Positions 368 to 19,881 of a DNA stretch of 24,138 nt are shown here, piece by piece. Position 1 is the first letter of the stretch; every line of letters begins with the position of its first letter. The stretch comes from a virus, in the IMG/VR virus record IMGVR_UViG_3300033987_000046, positions 1 to 24,138 of that record, one strand, 5' to 3'. The notes under the pieces were generated by a model. The model had not been told where the DNA came from and ran no database searches. It was given only the letters and a program-made list of their open reading frames with translations. A program made the translations under genes and the position numbers.

Positions 368-1087
368 ATGAAAATCACATTTGAAAAGAGAGGTACAAAA
401 TTTGAGGTGGAGGTTATAAAGGAAGATGCTTATATTACCGCAAAGGGAATACAGGCGATTGCACATCCTTACAAGCATAGACAACACGGCTGGGGATACG
501 AAGTCAGGTACAACAGAGCCTTCCTAAAAGCTCTCGGCGCAGGGCCAGAAATAGAAACCGTATTTATCACCCATGAAAGCGCCGAGCAAGTCAAAAATGC
601 AATAGACGCATATAGAGAAGAAGAAAACGCCAGGAAGCAGAAAGAGAAGGAGGAAAGGAAGCAAAGAATTATTGCTGGGGCAGAGAAAATCAGAGTCAGC
701 TATCACGATGGAGAGTATCTCAGCGGGCATGAGGTCTTAGACGAAGTTGCCGCTGAGTTGCTCGAAGAGCTTGGCCTTGCCAGATATGTTGAAGGTTGGG
801 GATACCATATTGATGAAGAACTTGTGAGGACGTACGGGACAGAGTTTACATATCAGCAAGCGAAAGAATTCGTACAACCACGAAAAGAAGCTGAGGCTAG
901 GAAGCAGAAAGAAAGGGAAGAAATTAGGGCGAAGTTTGAGGAAGCGAAAGCAACAGGAAAGCCTGTAGAGCTTTACAGATTTATCGTCGACTGCAACGAC
1001 CCAAGGCTGGAATGTTCCACCGATATTATCATCGTTTATGCTATGCCGGATGGAAGCAAAGACGAAAGGCGAATACATACCTACTAG
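368..1087 (+). CDS. Early phage protein of unknown function with a repeated GWGY segment
   Basis: A 239-residue protein not assigned to a family. The ATG at 368 is preferred over the in-frame TTG at 362 because GAGGGGG (354-360) sits 7 nt before the ATG but only 1 nt before the TTG. Two GWGY-centred stretches are each followed by a helical region ending in a Glu/Lys/Arg-rich run (RKQKEKEE and RKQKEREE), which looks like an internal duplication with charged helical or coiled-coil linkers. There is no signal peptide and no membrane segment. As the first gene behind the operator-controlled promoter it should be made early and may act on the host or on regulation; this is inference from position. 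Confidence 0.75.
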   Translation: MKITFEKRGTKFEVEVIKEDAYITAKGIQAIAHPYKHRQHGWGYEVRYNRAFLKALGAGPEIETVFITHESAEQVKNAIDAYREEENARKQKEKEERKQRIIAGAEKIRVSYHDGEYLSGHEVLDEVAAELLEELGLARYVEGWGYHIDEELVRTYGTEFTYQQAKEFVQPRKEAEARKQKEREEIRAKFEEAKATGKPVELYRFIVDCNDPRLECSTDIIIVYAMPDGSKDERRIHTY

Positions 1088-3894: not shown

Positions 3895-4083
3895 CCCAAC
3901 TAGTAGCACACCGCACCTTGACAACTGAATATCGCCTTACGAGTACCCGGATACTGGTGATGGCGGGTCTGCGGGGATCGCCAAGATGGGTACAAGCCCG
4001 GAGCGGGAGCGGACTGGCAAGCCAGCCCGATGAACGAAGGAGAAAGCAGGGGAGAAACGGAAGGGGAGGAGGGGAGAGAACAG
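3895..4083 (+). ncRNA. Gene-free leader with strong RNA structure
   Basis: No convincing gene lies here. GTACCC (3943-3948) pairs with GGGTAC (3988-3993) and encloses TGGCG/CGCCA (3961-3965 with 3979-3983). Downstream, CTGGC (4014-4018) pairs with GCCAG (4021-4025). CGGG (4004-4007) can pair either with CCCG upstream (3997-4000) or CCCG downstream (4026-4029), so two exclusive folds are possible, as in a riboswitch or attenuator. The last 50 bases are purine-rich and end in the ribosome site of the gene at 4084. No known family was recognised. Confidence 0.45.
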
Positions 4084-4266
4084 ATGAAACCGATGACTGA
4101 TAGAGAGCTCCTTGAGCTTGCGGTTAAGTTGCACATGGCTGTCTCGCTTGCAGTTAAGAAGGGCAAATTCAAGAAAGATACACGCTTTTTTCTGGAACGA
4201 ATGAAAGAAATAGCCGACCAAGCACTAGGACCAATAAACGATGACTTTTATTCATACTACGACTAA
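4084..4266 (+). CDS. Small helical phage protein, 60 aa
   Basis: A 60-residue, mostly helical protein with an acidic and tyrosine-rich C-terminus (INDDFYSYYD). The ATG at 4084 is preferred because GGGGAG (4071-4076) sits 7 nt upstream. An in-frame ATG at 4030 would add 18 residues that merely translate the purine-rich leader. No family recognised. Confidence 0.6.
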   Translation: MKPMTDRELLELAVKLHMAVSLAVKKGKFKKDTRFFLERMKEIADQALGPINDDFYSYYD

Positions 4267-4280
4267 GGAGGTGAAACACA

Positions 4281-4448
4281 TTGCTGCAGCTATACACATA
4301 TCGGCGCAAGCGCCGCTGGGTAACCACAACAAGGTTCTGGGCTATAGTAACAATTTTGGCCATCATAATTGCATACTTTGTTTTCCGCAATGTTTCTATG
4401 CAAGATTTGTGTACAAGCCCATATTGGCGCTATGTGTTCAGTAAATAA
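4281..4448 (+). CDS. Small single-pass membrane protein, 55 aa
   Basis: A TTG start at 4281 lies 7 nt after AAGGAGGTG (4265-4273), an excellent ribosome site. The 55-residue product has a basic N-terminus (YRRKRRW), one hydrophobic helix of about 17 residues (residues 20-37, FWAIVTILAIIIAYFVF), then a short tail with one Cys. The basic-inside rule predicts the N-terminus in the cytoplasm. Its role is unknown; similar mini-membrane proteins are common among early phage genes. Confidence 0.65.
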   Translation: MLQLYTYRRKRRWVTTTRFWAIVTILAIIIAYFVFRNVSMQDLCTSPYWRYVFSK

Positions 4449-14351: not shown

Positions 14352-14534
14352 ATGTTGCAAAAAGACTGCACAAATTGCGAAAGACGGGACAAGCGCACAG
14401 GTGGGCGTCGGTGTCGGGTTTTTATCGAAAAGCCCGAAAACTGCTGGGCCTGGACAGACGATCCAGACTGGGACGTAAAAGTAGAAGAAGCAATCAGAAA
14501 GCACAGGGAGGGAAAAGTCGAGAATGAGAATTGA
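14352..14534 (+). CDS. Cys-rich small phage protein, 60 aa
   Basis: A 60-residue protein with CTNC (6-9), C21 and C31, a likely single zinc site, then a WTDDPDWDVKVEEAIRKH helix. Its last codons overlap the beginning of the truncated late-regulator copy at 14524, the same kind of tight coupling seen at the intact copy. No family recognised. Confidence 0.7.
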   Translation: MLQKDCTNCERRDKRTGGRRCRVFIEKPENCWAWTDDPDWDVKVEEAIRKHREGKVENEN

Positions 14535-14646
14535 AAGAAGAGTTTTTAGATACGTAGAGTATGAATTATACAATTACGATAATACAAAGAAGGAACTGCA
14601 GCGATACAGGGAAGCAATCCTGGTTGGTACGGTGGGGGCATGGTAA
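14524..14646 (+). pseudogene. Truncated copy of the late regulator gene
   Basis: The 40-residue reading from ATG 14524 matches the first 30 residues of the intact regulator at 18199 at 26 positions (ERRVF..., EYELYNYDNTKKEL, RYRE) and then departs into unrelated residues and a stop at 14644. The DNA is also clearly related over about 95 bases but has diverged. It is the left side of a direct repeat that frames the type IV-B genes. Confidence 0.8.
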
Positions 14647-14930
14647 CGTTTTGCGTTGGCATAGTTAGGTAGGGAAGTGTACGGTGTGGGCGACGCAGTG
14701 CGCGGCGAAGGCGATGCACTGTTCCACACGGCTTGGTAGTGGCATGGCAACGTTTGGTAAAGTTAGGGCATTGTGTGGTAAAGCTGAGTAAAGGATGAGC
14801 GTGGTCATGTATGGCAATGGCAATGCGATGTGTGCCGATAGGGCGGTGTTACGTGTAGTCATGCAAGGGCATAGTGAAGCGATGTGAAGCATAGGCGATG
14901 TCCCGCGCAGTTGTGCGAAGGCTAGCATAG
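14647..14930 (+). other. Gene-free G-rich tract with degenerate repeats upstream of csf1
   Basis: No gene with a ribosome site is present in these 280 bases. The + strand is rich in G and T and poor in C. GGCATGGTAACGTTTTG (14637-14653) recurs as GGCATGGCAACGTTTGG (14741-14757), 104 bp apart. GCGATG recurs several times (for example in GCGATGTG and GCGATGTCC), and ATGGCA-type units follow one another near 14815. There is no promoter or terminator I can support. It could be an untranslated RNA made with the operon, or decayed sequence left by the insertion. Confidence 0.5.
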
Positions 14931-14945
14931 AAAGGAGGTGATAGA

Positions 14946-15584
14946 TTGACTTTAGGTAAACTTCTTTTAGAAGCAACCAAAAGCGAAGCACAAAAAGGCA
15001 ATATCAAAGGCATATGTGTTGTATGCAGCAACGAGACAGAGCAAGGATTACCACTCAAGGAGTGTGTATCCGATAACTTCACTGGTTGGAGCTACTTCTT
15101 CTCAGGAAACTGCATGTGTCCAGAATGCGCATTCCTGTTCAGCGACCAGACGTTCCGCAGAAAATCATGGGTTGCATCACCACAGGAATTTCGAACATTC
15201 AAAAACGACGAAGCACAGCAGGTCCTATTTAACCCGCCAGAACCGCCATTCTTCATCCACATTGCCAAGACTGGCCAGAAACAAACATGGTTGTCATGTA
15301 TCCACAGGGTTGCCCACAATCCACACAAGTACTTCTTTTCGCATGAAAAATACGATGTACCAATATTGTTCGAGCGTGATAAAGCAGAGGTATACCTGCA
15401 GCTTATAGCGGAAGCAATAGCAAAGGGCTTGACCAAAACAGAGCTTACAACGGGGGAATTTAGTACAAAGACGTGGCAAAAAGCAATTGAAGGAGGCTAT
15501 CGTGATTTTCTGCGGGAAGTATCCAAATTCAAAGGCGATATCCTATGGGAGGTGTTGGTGGATGTTTACAGAAAAGCAGATTGA
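14946..15584 (+). CDS. csf1: Csf1, large-subunit-like protein of type IV-B CRISPR-Cas
   Basis: A 212-residue protein beginning with TTG, 7 nt after AAAGGAGGTG. It has a four-Cys zinc finger, CVVC (24-27) and CPEC (58-61), an aromatic-rich middle (FSDQTFRRKSW, PEPPFFIHIAKTGQK) and a helical C-terminus, the known form of Csf1 (Cas8-like) proteins. Csf1 caps the Csf2 filament of type IV complexes. The next gene overlaps it by 23 bases. Identification rests on this zinc-finger layout plus the csf2, csf3 and cysH genes that follow. Confidence 0.88.
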   Translation: MTLGKLLLEATKSEAQKGNIKGICVVCSNETEQGLPLKECVSDNFTGWSYFFSGNCMCPECAFLFSDQTFRRKSWVASPQEFRTFKNDEAQQVLFNPPEPPFFIHIAKTGQKQTWLSCIHRVAHNPHKYFFSHEKYDVPILFERDKAEVYLQLIAEAIAKGLTKTELTTGEFSTKTWQKAIEGGYRDFLREVSKFKGDILWEVLVDVYRKAD

Positions 15585-15945
15585 GGACAAAACGGTCGAG
15601 CTGCTGGCGATAGTGTACAACAGCATAAACTGGAGCAAGATGCACACGAGCAAGAATCCGCACGATATATTCAACCATCGGGTTAGGGCGGCAAGCAGGC
15701 GGGCAACTCTGTTTGAAGCCATATCAAAGTTAGCCAATTATTTTGGGTTGCAATCATTACCGACAGAAGCAATACAGCTTACTCAGGAGCTCCGGCCTTA
15801 CGAGAGGGTAGTGCTAAACAAAATGTACATGGAACATATACCGATGTCTATGATGGCGATTATGCGGGCTAAAGAGAGGCGCAAAAATAAAGGTCAAATC
15901 ACAATCTTTGAAACTTTAAAAGAGGAGGTATTGAAAGATGAATAA
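15562..15945 (+). CDS. cas11: Cas11-like small subunit of the type IV-B complex
   Basis: A 127-residue, nearly all-helical protein in the position that the small subunit occupies in type IV-B operons, between csf1 and csf2. The ATG at 15562 is chosen because GGGAGGTG (15547-15554) lies 7 nt upstream; earlier in-frame starts lie inside csf1 and lack a site. It contains basic helices (RVRAASRRATLFE, MRAKERRKNKG), suiting contact with RNA or the Cas7 backbone. Small subunits diverge greatly, so size, fold and place carry the call. Confidence 0.75.
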   Translation: MFTEKQIEDKTVELLAIVYNSINWSKMHTSKNPHDIFNHRVRAASRRATLFEAISKLANYFGLQSLPTEAIQLTQELRPYERVVLNKMYMEHIPMSMMAIMRAKERRKNKGQITIFETLKEEVLKDE

Positions 15946-16774
15946 GCGATTTTATGAAATTGAGGGCACTATCACGGCTTTGACACCAATTTTTCATGGA
16001 GGGGACGAGAAAACCGGGTCTACACCGGTTTTACGCACAATCATGGTGTATGTAGACGGCATAGGTGAAGTGCCAATTCCGTATATCTCTGGCAATGGTA
16101 TTCGAGGCAAACTCCGCAGGTTGTCCATCAAAGATTTCCTCGACATGCTGGAATATGAAATCACAAATACAAAGTTACACCATGCGCTGTTCTCAGGAGG
16201 CGTGCTTGAGTCCACATCTGACACAACCGGTGTAATCGACCTGGCATTCAGAAAGAAGGTTCGGGAGCTCATGCCACCCGTGGCCATATTTGGTTGCGCT
16301 CTTGGCAATCAAATGATCCAAGGCAACCTTATTGTGGAGCATATGTGGCCAATTTGCGAGGAGTACAAGCCATACTTGCCAGAGGAATACCAAAAAGACC
16401 CACGAGCAGAGCGACCAATACGCACGTTCACAGACCAAAGTTTTATAACTAGGCGTGATGATTTGCGAGAAGAACGGGAAGAGGACGAACAGGCAGTGCA
16501 AATGAAAGTCGATTACGAATGTTTTGTGCCGGGGACGAAGTTTTATCACCGCTTTGTGTTGCAACTGCCAGACCAGCTCCAGCTTAGCTGTTTCGGGCGC
16601 GTATTGGACCTGTTTGAGGCCATGCCGTATGTGGGAGGTAGGAGCTCCAGCGGTGATGGCAAGGTCATGTTGAACTACAAGAACAAGCCAGATGCGTCGC
16701 TATATTTAGAGTTTGTACAGGAAAAGAAAGACGATATTGTAAAACTGCTTAAGGAACTGGAGGAGAAACTATGA
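15938..16774 (+). CDS. csf2: Csf2 (Cas7-family backbone) of type IV-B CRISPR-Cas
   Basis: A 278-residue RAMP-type protein. The conserved Cas7/Csf2 loop is clear at residues 49-61 (YISGNGIRGKLRR), a glycine-rich motif that packs against bound RNA. GGRSSSGDG near the C-terminus is the typical second glycine loop (vGGrssrGfG in relatives). Csf2 multimerises along the guide RNA, about one per six nucleotides in known type IV complexes. It overlaps cas11 by 8 bases and csf3 by 4, so synthesis is coupled. Confidence 0.9.
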   Translation: MNKRFYEIEGTITALTPIFHGGDEKTGSTPVLRTIMVYVDGIGEVPIPYISGNGIRGKLRRLSIKDFLDMLEYEITNTKLHHALFSGGVLESTSDTTGVIDLAFRKKVRELMPPVAIFGCALGNQMIQGNLIVEHMWPICEEYKPYLPEEYQKDPRAERPIRTFTDQSFITRRDDLREEREEDEQAVQMKVDYECFVPGTKFYHRFVLQLPDQLQLSCFGRVLDLFEAMPYVGGRSSSGDGKVMLNYKNKPDASLYLEFVQEKKDDIVKLLKELEEKL

Positions 16775-17544
16775 GCGGTATACTAGAGGAAGTCAAATAC
16801 TTTGTGAGCTTGGCCGAGAAGGCTCCACCTATTCGGTGGGGTCGCTTCCGACCATTCAAAGTGGCGTTCAAAATGGGCTCACCGGTGTGCGTTACCACAC
16901 CATGGATTAGCTTTGATGGTCTAATTGCACATTTGATGTTGCTGGATGCGTTTGGCGAAGACTTCTTTATTACGCCCAAGAAGCTGGATTTGTCGCCGTA
17001 TTTGCCGCACAATCAACGGTTATTACCCATTCTTAAAACTGGCGATATATATCACACCAGTGTAAGCCAGTTTATACCGCACTCGGTAAAGATTACGCAG
17101 ATTTACAAACGGTTTGAAGAACGTTGGAGTGAGAATCTCAAAAACAAAACAATTCGGTTAGGTAGTGGTCATTTTCGAATGTACGCTATGAAACAGCCAT
17201 ATGTACCATGCAAGGAAGTTGTTTACTACGTGAACGGTGATATGGACTTGATAAGACAGCTAATCGAACAGTATTTAGTCGGATTAGGCAACGACATCCG
17301 CATCGGCTTTGGCATGATTAGGGATGTGGTTTTTGAGGAAACCGAAGAAGACTACTCTCTTGTTGCGGAAGGCGTCGCAATGCGGCCAATTCCAGTATCA
17401 ATGTGCGAGGAGTACGAAGACGCTGCATACCTGCCATACAAGGCTCCATACTGGAGTCCGAGAAACGTTGTATTATGTGTACCACCGGGAGCGAGGTGTG
17501 AGTTGAAGGATGAATATCAAAGAAGTTCTAAAGCAGTGGGCTGA
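16771..17544 (+). CDS. csf3: Csf3 (Cas5-like) of type IV-B CRISPR-Cas
   Basis: A 257-residue Cas5-family protein. The first beta-strand block FRPFKVAFKMGSPVCVT is followed by SFDGLIAHLML (47-57), the helix typical of Csf3 (hldglLahl), and GLGNDIRIGFGMI (171-183) is the C-terminal glycine-rich loop of Csf3/Cas6-type ferredoxin folds. It should cap the 5' end of the guide RNA. It starts in an ATGA overlap with csf2. Its last 35 bases overlap the start of the cysH-like gene. Confidence 0.88.
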   Translation: MSGILEEVKYFVSLAEKAPPIRWGRFRPFKVAFKMGSPVCVTTPWISFDGLIAHLMLLDAFGEDFFITPKKLDLSPYLPHNQRLLPILKTGDIYHTSVSQFIPHSVKITQIYKRFEERWSENLKNKTIRLGSGHFRMYAMKQPYVPCKEVVYYVNGDMDLIRQLIEQYLVGLGNDIRIGFGMIRDVVFEETEEDYSLVAEGVAMRPIPVSMCEEYEDAAYLPYKAPYWSPRNVVLCVPPGARCELKDEYQRSSKAVG

Positions 17545-18202
17545 GATGGATGTGCATAAGACGAAGGTAGAAGAAGCGAGGCAAATAATTGCCAAGGCTC
17601 TTGCAACGCATCAAAAGCCGTATGTAGCCTTCTCTGGAGGTAAAGATTCAACCTGCATGCTTCATCTTGTGCTTCAGCAAAAGCCAGACATTATGGTGTA
17701 TCACTGGGATTACGGGCCTTATCTTATGCCAAGAGATGTAGAAAAAGAAGTAATAGAGATTGCAAAGAAAATAGGAACGCAAAATCTTGTTGTGGATACG
17801 TCGAGGCTGTATACATCCCGAGAGGCTACAGGTATTTGGTATAGGGAATTTTTTGGGAGAGTGATAAAGGAATTGTGCCAACAAGGCTATGACTTAGTTT
17901 TTGTTGGAATACGCAAACATGAAAGTTTAAAGCGCAAAAGACGGGTTGAACGAGGCGAAAAACTAACTGTAATTGATGAATGCTGGCCGCTGCAAAATTG
18001 GACGTGGCAGGATGTATGGGCTTATATATTTTCAAACAATTTGCCATATCACAGCGTGTATGATAAATATGCACCAATAGTTGGGTGGGATAATGCAAGG
18101 TTTGTGACTTTTTTTGATCCAGAATTCGATAAAATCGGTGCCAGCAATTTAGATGGTGTGCTAATGTGGAGATGGAGAAACACAGGAGGGAGCAGCGAAT
18201 GA
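17510..18202 (+). CDS. cysH: CysH-like PP-loop ATPase of the type IV-B module
   Basis: A 230-residue adenine-nucleotide alpha-hydrolase (PP-loop) protein with SGGKDS at 42-47, the pyrophosphate-binding loop of PAPS reductases. The active-site Cys motif of real CysH (ECGxH near the C-terminus) and the paired Cys of APS reductases are absent. CysH-like genes recur in type IV-B operons, where their role is unsettled; here the gene overlaps csf3 by 35 bases and the late regulator by 4. A role in activating or modifying a complex component by adenylation is possible, but untested. Confidence 0.88.
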   Translation: MNIKEVLKQWAEMDVHKTKVEEARQIIAKALATHQKPYVAFSGGKDSTCMLHLVLQQKPDIMVYHWDYGPYLMPRDVEKEVIEIAKKIGTQNLVVDTSRLYTSREATGIWYREFFGRVIKELCQQGYDLVFVGIRKHESLKRKRRVERGEKLTVIDECWPLQNWTWQDVWAYIFSNNLPYHSVYDKYAPIVGWDNARFVTFFDPEFDKIGASNLDGVLMWRWRNTGGSSE

Positions 18203-18612
18203 AGATAGAACGGCGAGTGTTTAAATACATCGAGTATGAGTTGTACAATTACGACAATACAAAAAAAGAACTGGCAAGATACAGGGAAATGGTTTTGGAG
18301 AGCTCGCCAATGCCGCAAGAGGTGAAAGTGCAGGGTGGCGGGCAAATGGTATCACAAACAGAATCAAAAGCATTGAAGCTTATTACGTCATCATTCATTG
18401 CACATGCAGAGCGAGTTATAAACGCCATCGATAAGAGCCTCGCTATGCTGACAGAAGACCATAGAAAACTGTTCCACCTTAAGTATCAAGAGTGTTTGCC
18501 GTGGCAGGAGATAATAGTCGAGATGAACATATCGGACAGAACATACTTTCGAATGCGGCGTGAGCTTGTTGCAACGGTGGCAAGGCAACTTGGATTAATC
18601 AATGTTGAATAA
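18199..18612 (+). CDS. DUF1492/RinA-ArpU-like late transcription regulator
   Basis: A 137-residue protein. The N-terminal ERRVFKYIEYELYNYDNTKKEL resembles DUF1492 and RinA/ArpU regulators; residues 88-132 form a sigma-70-region-4-like helix-turn-helix (LFHLKYQECLPWQEIIVEMNISDRTYFRMR). Staphylococcal RinA activates late gene transcription. The gene starts at ATG 18199, 8 nt after AGGAGGG, in a 4-base overlap with cysH, so its translation is coupled to the type IV genes. A 5' fragment of a second copy lies at 14524. Confidence 0.88.
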   Translation: MKIERRVFKYIEYELYNYDNTKKELARYREMVLESSPMPQEVKVQGGGQMVSQTESKALKLITSSFIAHAERVINAIDKSLAMLTEDHRKLFHLKYQECLPWQEIIVEMNISDRTYFRMRRELVATVARQLGLINVE

Positions 18613-18762: not shown

Positions 18763-18794
18763 AAAACAAAAATATTTCAAAAGGGGGAATGAAA

Positions 18795-19418
18795 ATGTCA
18801 GAAAAAGCAAAGAAGCCGATTTTTAAGCGTTGGTGGTTTTGGCTTATTGTGATTATAGTTATCGGCGCTATTGCAAGCGCAGGAGGAGAGGATAAGCCGA
18901 GAAAAGAGGAACCTGCCGTAACAACAGGCGAACAAACACAAGGACAACCGCAGGAACAAACGCAGGAACGAACGCAAGAACAAGGACAAGCGGCAGAGCA
19001 ACCTAAAGAGGAGACGCCGGAATTCTTCAAGATTGGCGAAACAGCGGTAACAAAAAAGGTTAAGGCGACTATAATCGAAATGGAGAAGTCAGAAGGTAAT
19101 GCATTCAGCAAACCAGCAGAAGGAAACGAATTTGTCTTGTTGCATGTCACAATCGAAAATGTGTCAAACGAGGAATTAGTAGTAAGCTCCGCGCTTGGGT
19201 TTAGTGCTTATGTGGACGATAGCGCAATTAATGAAAGCCTTACTGCGCATACAAGCAAAGATAATCTTAAAACGCTAGACGGGACTGTGGCACCAGGGAA
19301 GAAATTGATAGGTACATTAGCCTATGAGGTCCCGAAAGACTGGAAGAAGCTAGAGATACACTTTAAGCCAGATCAGTTTTCGGATACTACAATCAAGTGG
19401 TTGATTGAAAATAAATAA
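18795..19418 (+). CDS. Membrane-anchored DUF4352-like protein (moron)
   Basis: A 207-residue protein. A basic start (KAKKPIFKRWW) is followed by one transmembrane helix (residues 13-28), a Gln/Glu/Thr-rich linker of short repeats (QEQTQERTQEQ) and from about residue 77 a beta-rich domain of the DUF4352 type (FVLLHVTIENVSNEELVV, GTVAPGKKLIGTLAYEVP). The domain should face outside the cell. It has its own promoter and terminator and interrupts the regulator-to-terminase order, the definition of a moron that can be expressed in a lysogen. ATG 18795 fits AGGGGG better than ATG 18789. Confidence 0.85.
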   Translation: MSEKAKKPIFKRWWFWLIVIIVIGAIASAGGEDKPRKEEPAVTTGEQTQGQPQEQTQERTQEQGQAAEQPKEETPEFFKIGETAVTKKVKATIIEMEKSEGNAFSKPAEGNEFVLLHVTIENVSNEELVVSSALGFSAYVDDSAINESLTAHTSKDNLKTLDGTVAPGKKLIGTLAYEVPKDWKKLEIHFKPDQFSDTTIKWLIENK

Positions 19419-19473: not shown

Positions 19474-19881
19474 ATGCCGCAGAGGCCATTACGGCCATGT
19501 AAGAAGATTGGTTGTATAAATCTTACAAGGGATAAAACAGGATATTGCGAATTGCACATACAGGAGTATTTGGAATATTTAAAGATGCAGAAGGCTGAAA
19601 GGGATAAGCGTTATGATGAACGGGTTAGACGAATAAGAGATAAACAATACTACGAGTTTTATAAAAGCGATGAATGGGCAAGAACAAAGACGCGAGCATT
19701 GATAAGAGATAAAGGATTGTGCCAATGGTGCTTGTCAAAAGGGATAATAAGAACTGCTGATGTGGTTCATCATATAGTACCGATAAAAGAGAACTGGGGC
19801 CTACGTTTTGATCTACAGAACCTCATTAGCTTGTGCCATGAATGTCATAATGAGTGGCACAGTCGAGAAGGTAGGGGGTAG
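19474..19881 (+). CDS. HNH endonuclease of the packaging module
   Basis: A 135-residue HNH nuclease. CQWC (83-86) and CHEC (121-124) bind a structural zinc; HH (99-100) in VVHHIVP is the first H of HNH, N116 (LQNLISL) the N, H125 or H129 the last. A second Cys set lies at the N-terminus (C9, C14, C25, H28). Such proteins beside terminase genes take part in cos cleavage and DNA packaging in HK97-like phages. ATG 19474 follows GGGGTGAT; upstream in-frame codons lie in the terminator. Confidence 0.92.
   Translation: MPQRPLRPCKKIGCINLTRDKTGYCELHIQEYLEYLKMQKAERDKRYDERVRRIRDKQYYEFYKSDEWARTKTRALIRDKGLCQWCLSKGIIRTADVVHHIVPIKENWGLRFDLQNLISLCHECHNEWHSREGRG

Follow-up and report, generated by a model that had tools for sequence, protein, structure and literature searches.

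A complete array-less type IV-B CRISPR-Cas gene set in a tailed phage and its possible role as an anti-CRISPR made from a whole Cas effector complex

Type IV systems of the clustered regularly interspaced short palindromic repeats (CRISPR)-Cas kind are on record in prophages, lytic phages and a family of archaeal viruses (PMC10848311, PMC11656645), and what subtype IV-B does has been a question ever since it was first described. In the IV-B loci of actinobacterial megaplasmids (Mycobacterium sp. JS623, PDB 7jhy; Rhodococcus) the genes run in the order csf1-cas11-csf2-csf3, an array is absent and a CysH gene lies nearby. The Mycobacterium sp. JS623 plasmid complex forms a ribonucleoprotein (RNP) filament on 55–60-nt non-CRISPR RNA, from which a sponge hypothesis has been drawn (PMC7937560); a sponge for CRISPR RNAs (crRNAs) remains an idea without direct support in the literature. 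In the Fuxiviridae, viruses of Bathyarchaeia, csf1, cas11, csf2 and csf3 are virus-borne with an adjacent CasCysH, a Cas4 homologue encoded separately is the only gene linked to adaptation, and cas7 is matched by a host spacer (PMC10848311). Here we describe a virus fragment of 24,138 nucleotides from IMG/VR (IMGVR_UViG_3300033987_000046; hereafter the window), of which positions 14946–18202 hold a complete array-less type IV-B CRISPR-Cas gene set within a tailed phage. It shares the virus-borne csf genes and adjacent CasCysH with the Fuxiviridae, and the gene order, lack of an array and nearby CysH with the megaplasmids. Its five overlapping genes are:

14946..15584, plus strand: csf1, IV-B large subunit, 212 aa (PADLOC PDLC01721, 5.5e-44)
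15562..15945, plus strand: cas11, small subunit, 127 aa (PADLOC PDLC01694, 2.9e-37)
15938..16774, plus strand: csf2, Cas7 backbone, 278 aa (PADLOC, 5.4e-94)
16771..17544, plus strand: csf3, Cas5-like, 257 aa, with the G-rich loop GLGNDIRIGFG (PADLOC, 4.6e-56; IV-A Csf3 in PDB, 2.3e-5)
17510..18202, plus strand: cysH (CasCysH), PP-loop ATP-pyrophosphatase, 230 aa (Pfam PF01507, PAPS_reduct, 7.9e-20)

An earlier note on this DNA had read the region as a five-gene IV-B-like operon in a phage, placed between the early genes and the late switch. Both coordinates and profiles agree with that reading, and the profile comparison it proposed returned PADLOC type IV models for csf1, cas11, csf2 and csf3 and the Pfam PAPS_reduct domain for cysH. 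It had also listed cas1, cas6, dinG and an array as missing, and this holds across the 24.1-kb record, in which we detected no Cas1, DinG helicase domain or CRISPR array (no separate search was made for cas2) and no Cas6 above the cut-off, the sole sub-threshold Cas6 match being csf3 itself. No Rfam family had a match anywhere in the record.

The csf1 gene starts at a TTG codon preceded by the ribosome site GGAGGTGA, and its product contains two zinc-finger cysteine pairs (C24/C27 and C58/C61), all four cysteines being invariant in 15 sequences. The best PDB folds for an AlphaFold2 (AF2) model of Csf1, with a predicted local distance difference test score (pLDDT) of 94.5, were the IV-A Csf1 chains 7xg1_A (E 6e-7) and 8rc3_G (Z 12.4), and only IV-A Csf1 gave a good match. 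Cas11 is marked by a core FNHRVRAASRR, conserved in 14 sequences. In an alignment to a Csm3, the slicer aspartate of the latter corresponds to Ser28 of Csf2. All 13 Csf2 sequences compared have this serine, and given the replacement Csf2 is unlikely to cleave target RNA. No effector nuclease was found in the cassette. CasCysH displays an invariant SGGKDS and no conserved cysteine in 14 sequences, while the nearest folds to its AF2 model (pLDDT 86) are CysH/phosphoadenosine phosphosulfate (PAPS) reductase, LarE and the PAPS domain of FAD synthase. Taken together, these features agree better with an ATP-pyrophosphatase, or an enzyme that adenylates, than with a reductase, and the same has been argued for plasmid CasCysH (PMC8175902).

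A Csf2 profile search of the PDB ranked Cas7 of the type IV-C complex (11fs, with Cas10IVc, Cas7c and Cas11c) first at 1.2e-21, followed by IV-B Csf2 (7jhy), IV-A Csf2 and Csm3. However, the IV-C complex has a 608-aa Cas10-like large subunit, whereas the window has a 212-aa Csf1, with a modelled fold that is that of IV-A Csf1 over its whole length, and CasCysH; type IV-C is thereby ruled out. The Csf2 tree that the earlier note had suggested was built by maximum likelihood from 51 Csf2 proteins, including six of type IV-A and leaving out IV-C sequences. The six IV-A proteins split off at 100/100, and the window sided with the array-less loci of Rhodococcus, Mycobacterium and archaeal plasmids and with other viruses. 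This separation, together with the absence of DinG, Cas6/Csf5 and an array from the window, rules out type IV-A. Thus, given the core csf set, CasCysH, the missing array, the Csf2 tree and the size and fold of Csf1, the locus is type IV-B by every feature examined.

A relative of this cassette is found in Caldicoprobacter algeriensis TH7C1, a named strain rather than a metagenome-assembled genome (MAG), with a Csf2 that is 96% identical to that of the window. There it is part of a prophage of 51.6 kb that is intact, carries genes for integrase, TerL, capsid, tape measure, amidase and holin, and is bounded by perfect 66-bp att repeats at a tRNA-Ser. The same genome encodes a complete type I-B locus (cas6-cas8b-cas7-cas5-cas3-cas4-cas1-cas2; profiles identify Cas6, Cas8b, Cas7, Cas3 and Cas1, whereas Cas5, Cas4 and Cas2 are recognized from where they lie and from their sequence), in which the Cas3 motifs are retained. 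Six of the 296 spacers in its array match its own IV-B prophage perfectly and one more matches it at 36/37. Four of the six perfect protospacers have the consensus protospacer-adjacent motif (PAM; TCA, TTA, TCA and CCA) of the other matches. Reversed or shuffled spacers gave zero matches, and the true spacers gave none at ≥90% in 360 kb of the other contigs of the strain. The array also yields 18 matches to the window phage, two of them perfect, shuffled spacers again giving none, which suggests that Caldicoprobacter or a close relative is the likely host of this phage. Three matches in the window are located as follows:

449..486, minus strand: protospacer of a C. algeriensis spacer, perfect match (38/38)
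15132..15167, minus strand: protospacer-like match inside csf1, 30/36 to a C. algeriensis spacer, with a CCA PAM
19738..19774, plus strand: protospacer of a C. algeriensis spacer, perfect match (37/37), with a TCA PAM

Comparable self-targeting is seen in two further genomes with IV-B, namely Candidatus Kapaibacterium, whose chromosome is one metagenomic contig, and a draft MAG of Calditrichia. About 71 of the 437 spacers in the Kapaibacterium I-B array match its own IV-B prophage, 57 of them perfectly, and five match the IV-B cassette itself. A second, small integrated element of 8 kb with a recombinase-like gene (chromosome 114–122 kb; L129, L166) is matched by 45 spacers of this host array, 34 perfectly. 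TTA or TTG precedes the protospacer in 101 of the first 106 matches, and roughly 0.9 Mb of the chromosome that was tested held no further self-matches. The Calditrichia MAG has one perfect spacer (37/37) against its own IV-B contig. Perfect, PAM-flanked self-targets beside intact-looking CRISPR-Cas are a feature of the Caldicoprobacter and Kapaibacterium relatives, and not of the window genome itself, a fragment of a phage.

A cell does not normally survive when its I-B system is active and its chromosome contains perfectly matched targets flanked by a PAM. Given that such targets are tolerated, I-B interference is blocked or silent in these strains, with acquisition having continued; tolerated self-targeting of this kind is the anti-CRISPR signature. 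The targeted prophages have IV-B in common, and IV-B is known to form a nuclease-free RNA-binding filament (PMC7937560), which makes it a candidate for the blocker. Accordingly, we favor, at a probability of roughly 0.45, the reading that IV-B is an anti-CRISPR, an RNP that puts host crRNAs out of action and does not cleave. The phage or prophage would produce Csf2 and Cas11, which would assemble a non-cleaving filament on short RNAs, of the kind others have demonstrated for a plasmid IV-B, and withdraw host crRNAs or their precursors from the host I-B system. Interference would then fail while spacers continued to be acquired, and the prophage could persist under arrays full of matching spacers. 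In a second step CasCysH would probably adenylate a component of the complex or the bound RNA. The fuller proposal, in which phages have made an anti-CRISPR of an entire Cas effector complex, the array-less Cas7/Cas11 filament disarming host crRNAs and CasCysH modifying RNA or protein, is put forward a little more tentatively.

The data show the identity, integrity and mobility of the cassette, the selection on it, the loss of the slicer aspartate and host I-B systems that tolerate perfect self-targets in IV-B prophages. We infer, rather than observe, IV-B as the cause of the tolerance, crRNA as the bound RNA and the CasCysH step; the causal role is at this strength because the loci were chosen for IV-B, conventional anti-CRISPRs are possible, self-targeting is frequent and the one IV-B complex purified so far showed no preference for crRNA. 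Several observations weigh against the anti-CRISPR reading. IV-B RNPs were not enriched for co-expressed I-E crRNAs in the work of Zhou et al. (PMC7937560), and about 20% of CRISPR-bearing bacteria have self-targeting spacers (PMC10810201). Among seven genomes that have both IV-B and an array, four show no self-target, their IV-B contigs being only 4–10 kb. In Caldicoprobacter, the PAMs of two of the six perfectly matched protospacers are non-consensus (TTC and TAA), Kapaibacterium and Calditrichia are MAGs, and a sponge leaves the conservation of CasCysH unexplained.

The same prophages could also encode small anti-CRISPR proteins, and the alternative that survives best, which we regard as unlikely but serious, is that the cassette is IV-B with a different role and that self-targets are tolerated owing to such a protein, silent cas expression or mixing of populations. 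Small Acr proteins and cas mutation are among the established causes of this frequent phenomenon (PMC10810201), the prophages in question have many unannotated small open reading frames, and for two of the three hosts the genome is a MAG. However, that of Caldicoprobacter is not, and the Cas operons of two hosts look intact. The pattern also recurs in three unrelated phyla, each time with IV-B in the targeted element, a sharing that is no controlled comparison given that the loci were picked for having IV-B.

It is more doubtful that the complex is an RNA-guided weapon, which would take guides from host arrays, or a phage-encoded RNA, and silence rival phages or plasmids without cleavage in the manner of type IV-A. 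The helical Cas7/Cas11 architecture does present RNA for pairing (PMC7937560), plasmids are silenced by IV-A (PMC11656645), and one relative, a MAG contig (L042), has a true four-repeat CRISPR array with a 36-nt palindromic repeat at 4044–4299, 0.8 kb behind the cassette. The latter represents a rare array-bearing IV-B, whereas the cassette of the window, like those of nearly all its relatives, has no CRISPR or mini-array nearby, and the window also lacks Cas6 and a helicase of the DinG kind. Furthermore, the crRNAs on offer in two genomes are directed against the very prophage that carries IV-B. A complex guided by them would end up at that prophage, and removal of crRNAs therefore fits better than their hijacking. 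This disfavors the use of host crRNAs against competing elements, one of three functions raised in the earlier note. A second, phage gene control, found no support, and the third, interference with host crRNAs, is the one that gains from the tolerated self-targeting in host genomes.

Slightly less probable again is an enzymatic RNP, in which the filament would present RNA or DNA to CasCysH for adenylation or another modification, whether or not a specific guide is involved, and so serve to control phage genes or to evade defences that sense RNA. This would account for the retention of CasCysH in nearly all complete loci with its SGGKDS and without a reductase cysteine, for a PP-loop fold near CysH, LarE and the FAD synthase PAPS domain, and for the second PP-loop enzyme of the DUF3440 family and the ParB-like gene found beside the cassette in several phages and, in like manner, on two archaeal plasmids. 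Against it, no substrate or guide is known, and a distinctive leader RNA is seen in just two loci. Finally, a neutral passenger without function, as might be suggested by a partial duplication at the flank of the kind left by inserted cargo, is ruled out by selection: the ratio of nonsynonymous to synonymous substitution rates (dN/dS) is 0.02–0.09 for all five genes where dS, itself near saturation, could be estimated, and the frames are intact across many phages, pointing to strong purifying selection on the whole cassette.

The cassette, whole or partial, was recovered on about 45 distinct contigs when viral contigs and the genomes of species were scanned. Wherever it is whole the order csf1-cas11-csf2-csf3-cysH is constant, with an extra gene inserted in some. 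DNA similarity between the window and its nearest relatives extends from about 14929 to 18178, that is, from some 14 bases before csf1 to inside the end of cysH, and the flanks are unrelated. The surrounding genes of the window encode an anti-repressor, an SNF2-type helicase, a primase, a sigma/ArpU-like late regulator, HNH, TerS, TerL and a portal protein. A terminase gene lies about 0.5–9 kb downstream on the same strand in at least 12 contigs, and RusA directly 5' of csf1 in several, so that the cassette is repeatedly found at the end of the early region. It is best explained as a mobile module carried by temperate tailed phages that infect thermophilic Clostridia, among other hosts. A class-level genome survey (2/391) was too sparse and added no cases, and 72,556 plasmid records contained no match at ≥60% identity.

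We also noted that the Csf2 of the window is 97% identical to those of two relatives (L002, L003), and the neighboring Csf3 only 65–70% (window 15938–17544), which could mean either that parts of the cassette have recombined or that its Cas5 and CysH subunits change faster. Another recurrent neighbor is a pair formed by the DUF3440 gene of the PAPS-reductase family and the ParB-like gene (IbrA/IbrB-like), which adjoins the cassette in L033 (13093–14753), L002, L012, L013, L014, L019, L032 and L056, at times joined by a methyltransferase and a 290-aa protein of unknown nature. Two haloarchaeal plasmids have a similar neighborhood, with DUF3440 beside the Natrinema locus (L070) and, next to the Actinarchaeum locus (L076), ParB together with another PAPS-reductase gene. 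In the window, a membrane-anchored protein with weak likeness to superinfection-exclusion families phrog_4980 and phrog_8545 is encoded just 3' of the cassette, at 18789–19415.

The immediate flanks of the cassette contain three further features:

14522..14613, plus strand: truncated second copy of the start of the sigma/ArpU-like gene, 92 bp, 79% identical to 18197–18288
14620..14945, plus strand: G-rich quasi-repetitive untranslated leader directly before csf1, found by a composition model
18199..18612, plus strand: sigma/ArpU-like late transcription regulator (phrog_36, 1.4e-27), directly behind the cassette and not a member of it

The duplicate is probably a footprint of the insertion of the cassette. 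The leader was the only match in the window to a composition model trained on the leader of the Caldicoprobacter prophage (contig C41, 32900–33390; L080/L033), and the reciprocal search agrees; in each genome it occurs once, directly before csf1. The two leaders are alike in composition and barely alignable, and these are the only two loci that have one. A role for the leader as a structured guide RNA was rejected, as its fold is no better than that of shuffled sequences (z -1.0) and only these two loci possess it. Likewise rejected was a crRNA-handle-like sequence, ATTGAAAC, 5' of csf1, which is confined to two related phages. Sequences resembling type I-B crRNA handles, GATTGAAAC and GATGGAAAC, stand immediately before the csf1 start in L008 (~1183) and L010 (~8969), and may be due to chance.

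Given that IV-B of phages and prophages was already known in outline, the locus of the window adds a member to a described group, and its novelty is lower than the earlier note implied. Within an incomplete coverage of the literature, neither this lineage of bacterial phages, nor the spacers that host arrays hold against it, nor the DUF3440/ParB-like pair was found to have been described before. Viruses are known to have recruited CRISPR RNAs as inhibitors but, rare exceptions aside, not Cas proteins (PMC11656645). If the anti-CRISPR reading is true, the gap named there would be filled by a whole Cas complex turned by viruses against CRISPR, and self-targeting IV-B prophages make the sponge idea directly testable in a named bacterium, C. 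algeriensis.

Among the described systems, the Fuxiviridae locus differs from that of the window in belonging to an archaeal virus, whereas the window is an array-less tailed phage with spacer matches pointing to Caldicoprobacter. The actinobacterial IV-B loci are on plasmids rather than in a phage, their Csf2 proteins are 26–32% identical to that of the window and their CysH is often divergently placed. Closer in Csf2, at 42% identity, is a IV-B-like locus on a plasmid of the archaeon Thermococcus nautili, in which repeat-associated mysterious protein (RAMP), Cas5/Cas6-like and PAPS-reductase-family genes follow the same order. Xanthomonas albilineans resembles the IV-B hosts in having functional CRISPR with many self-targets in prophages; there, however, the block is due to the small proteins AcrIC11 and AcrIF12, and not to a Cas complex (PMC10810201).

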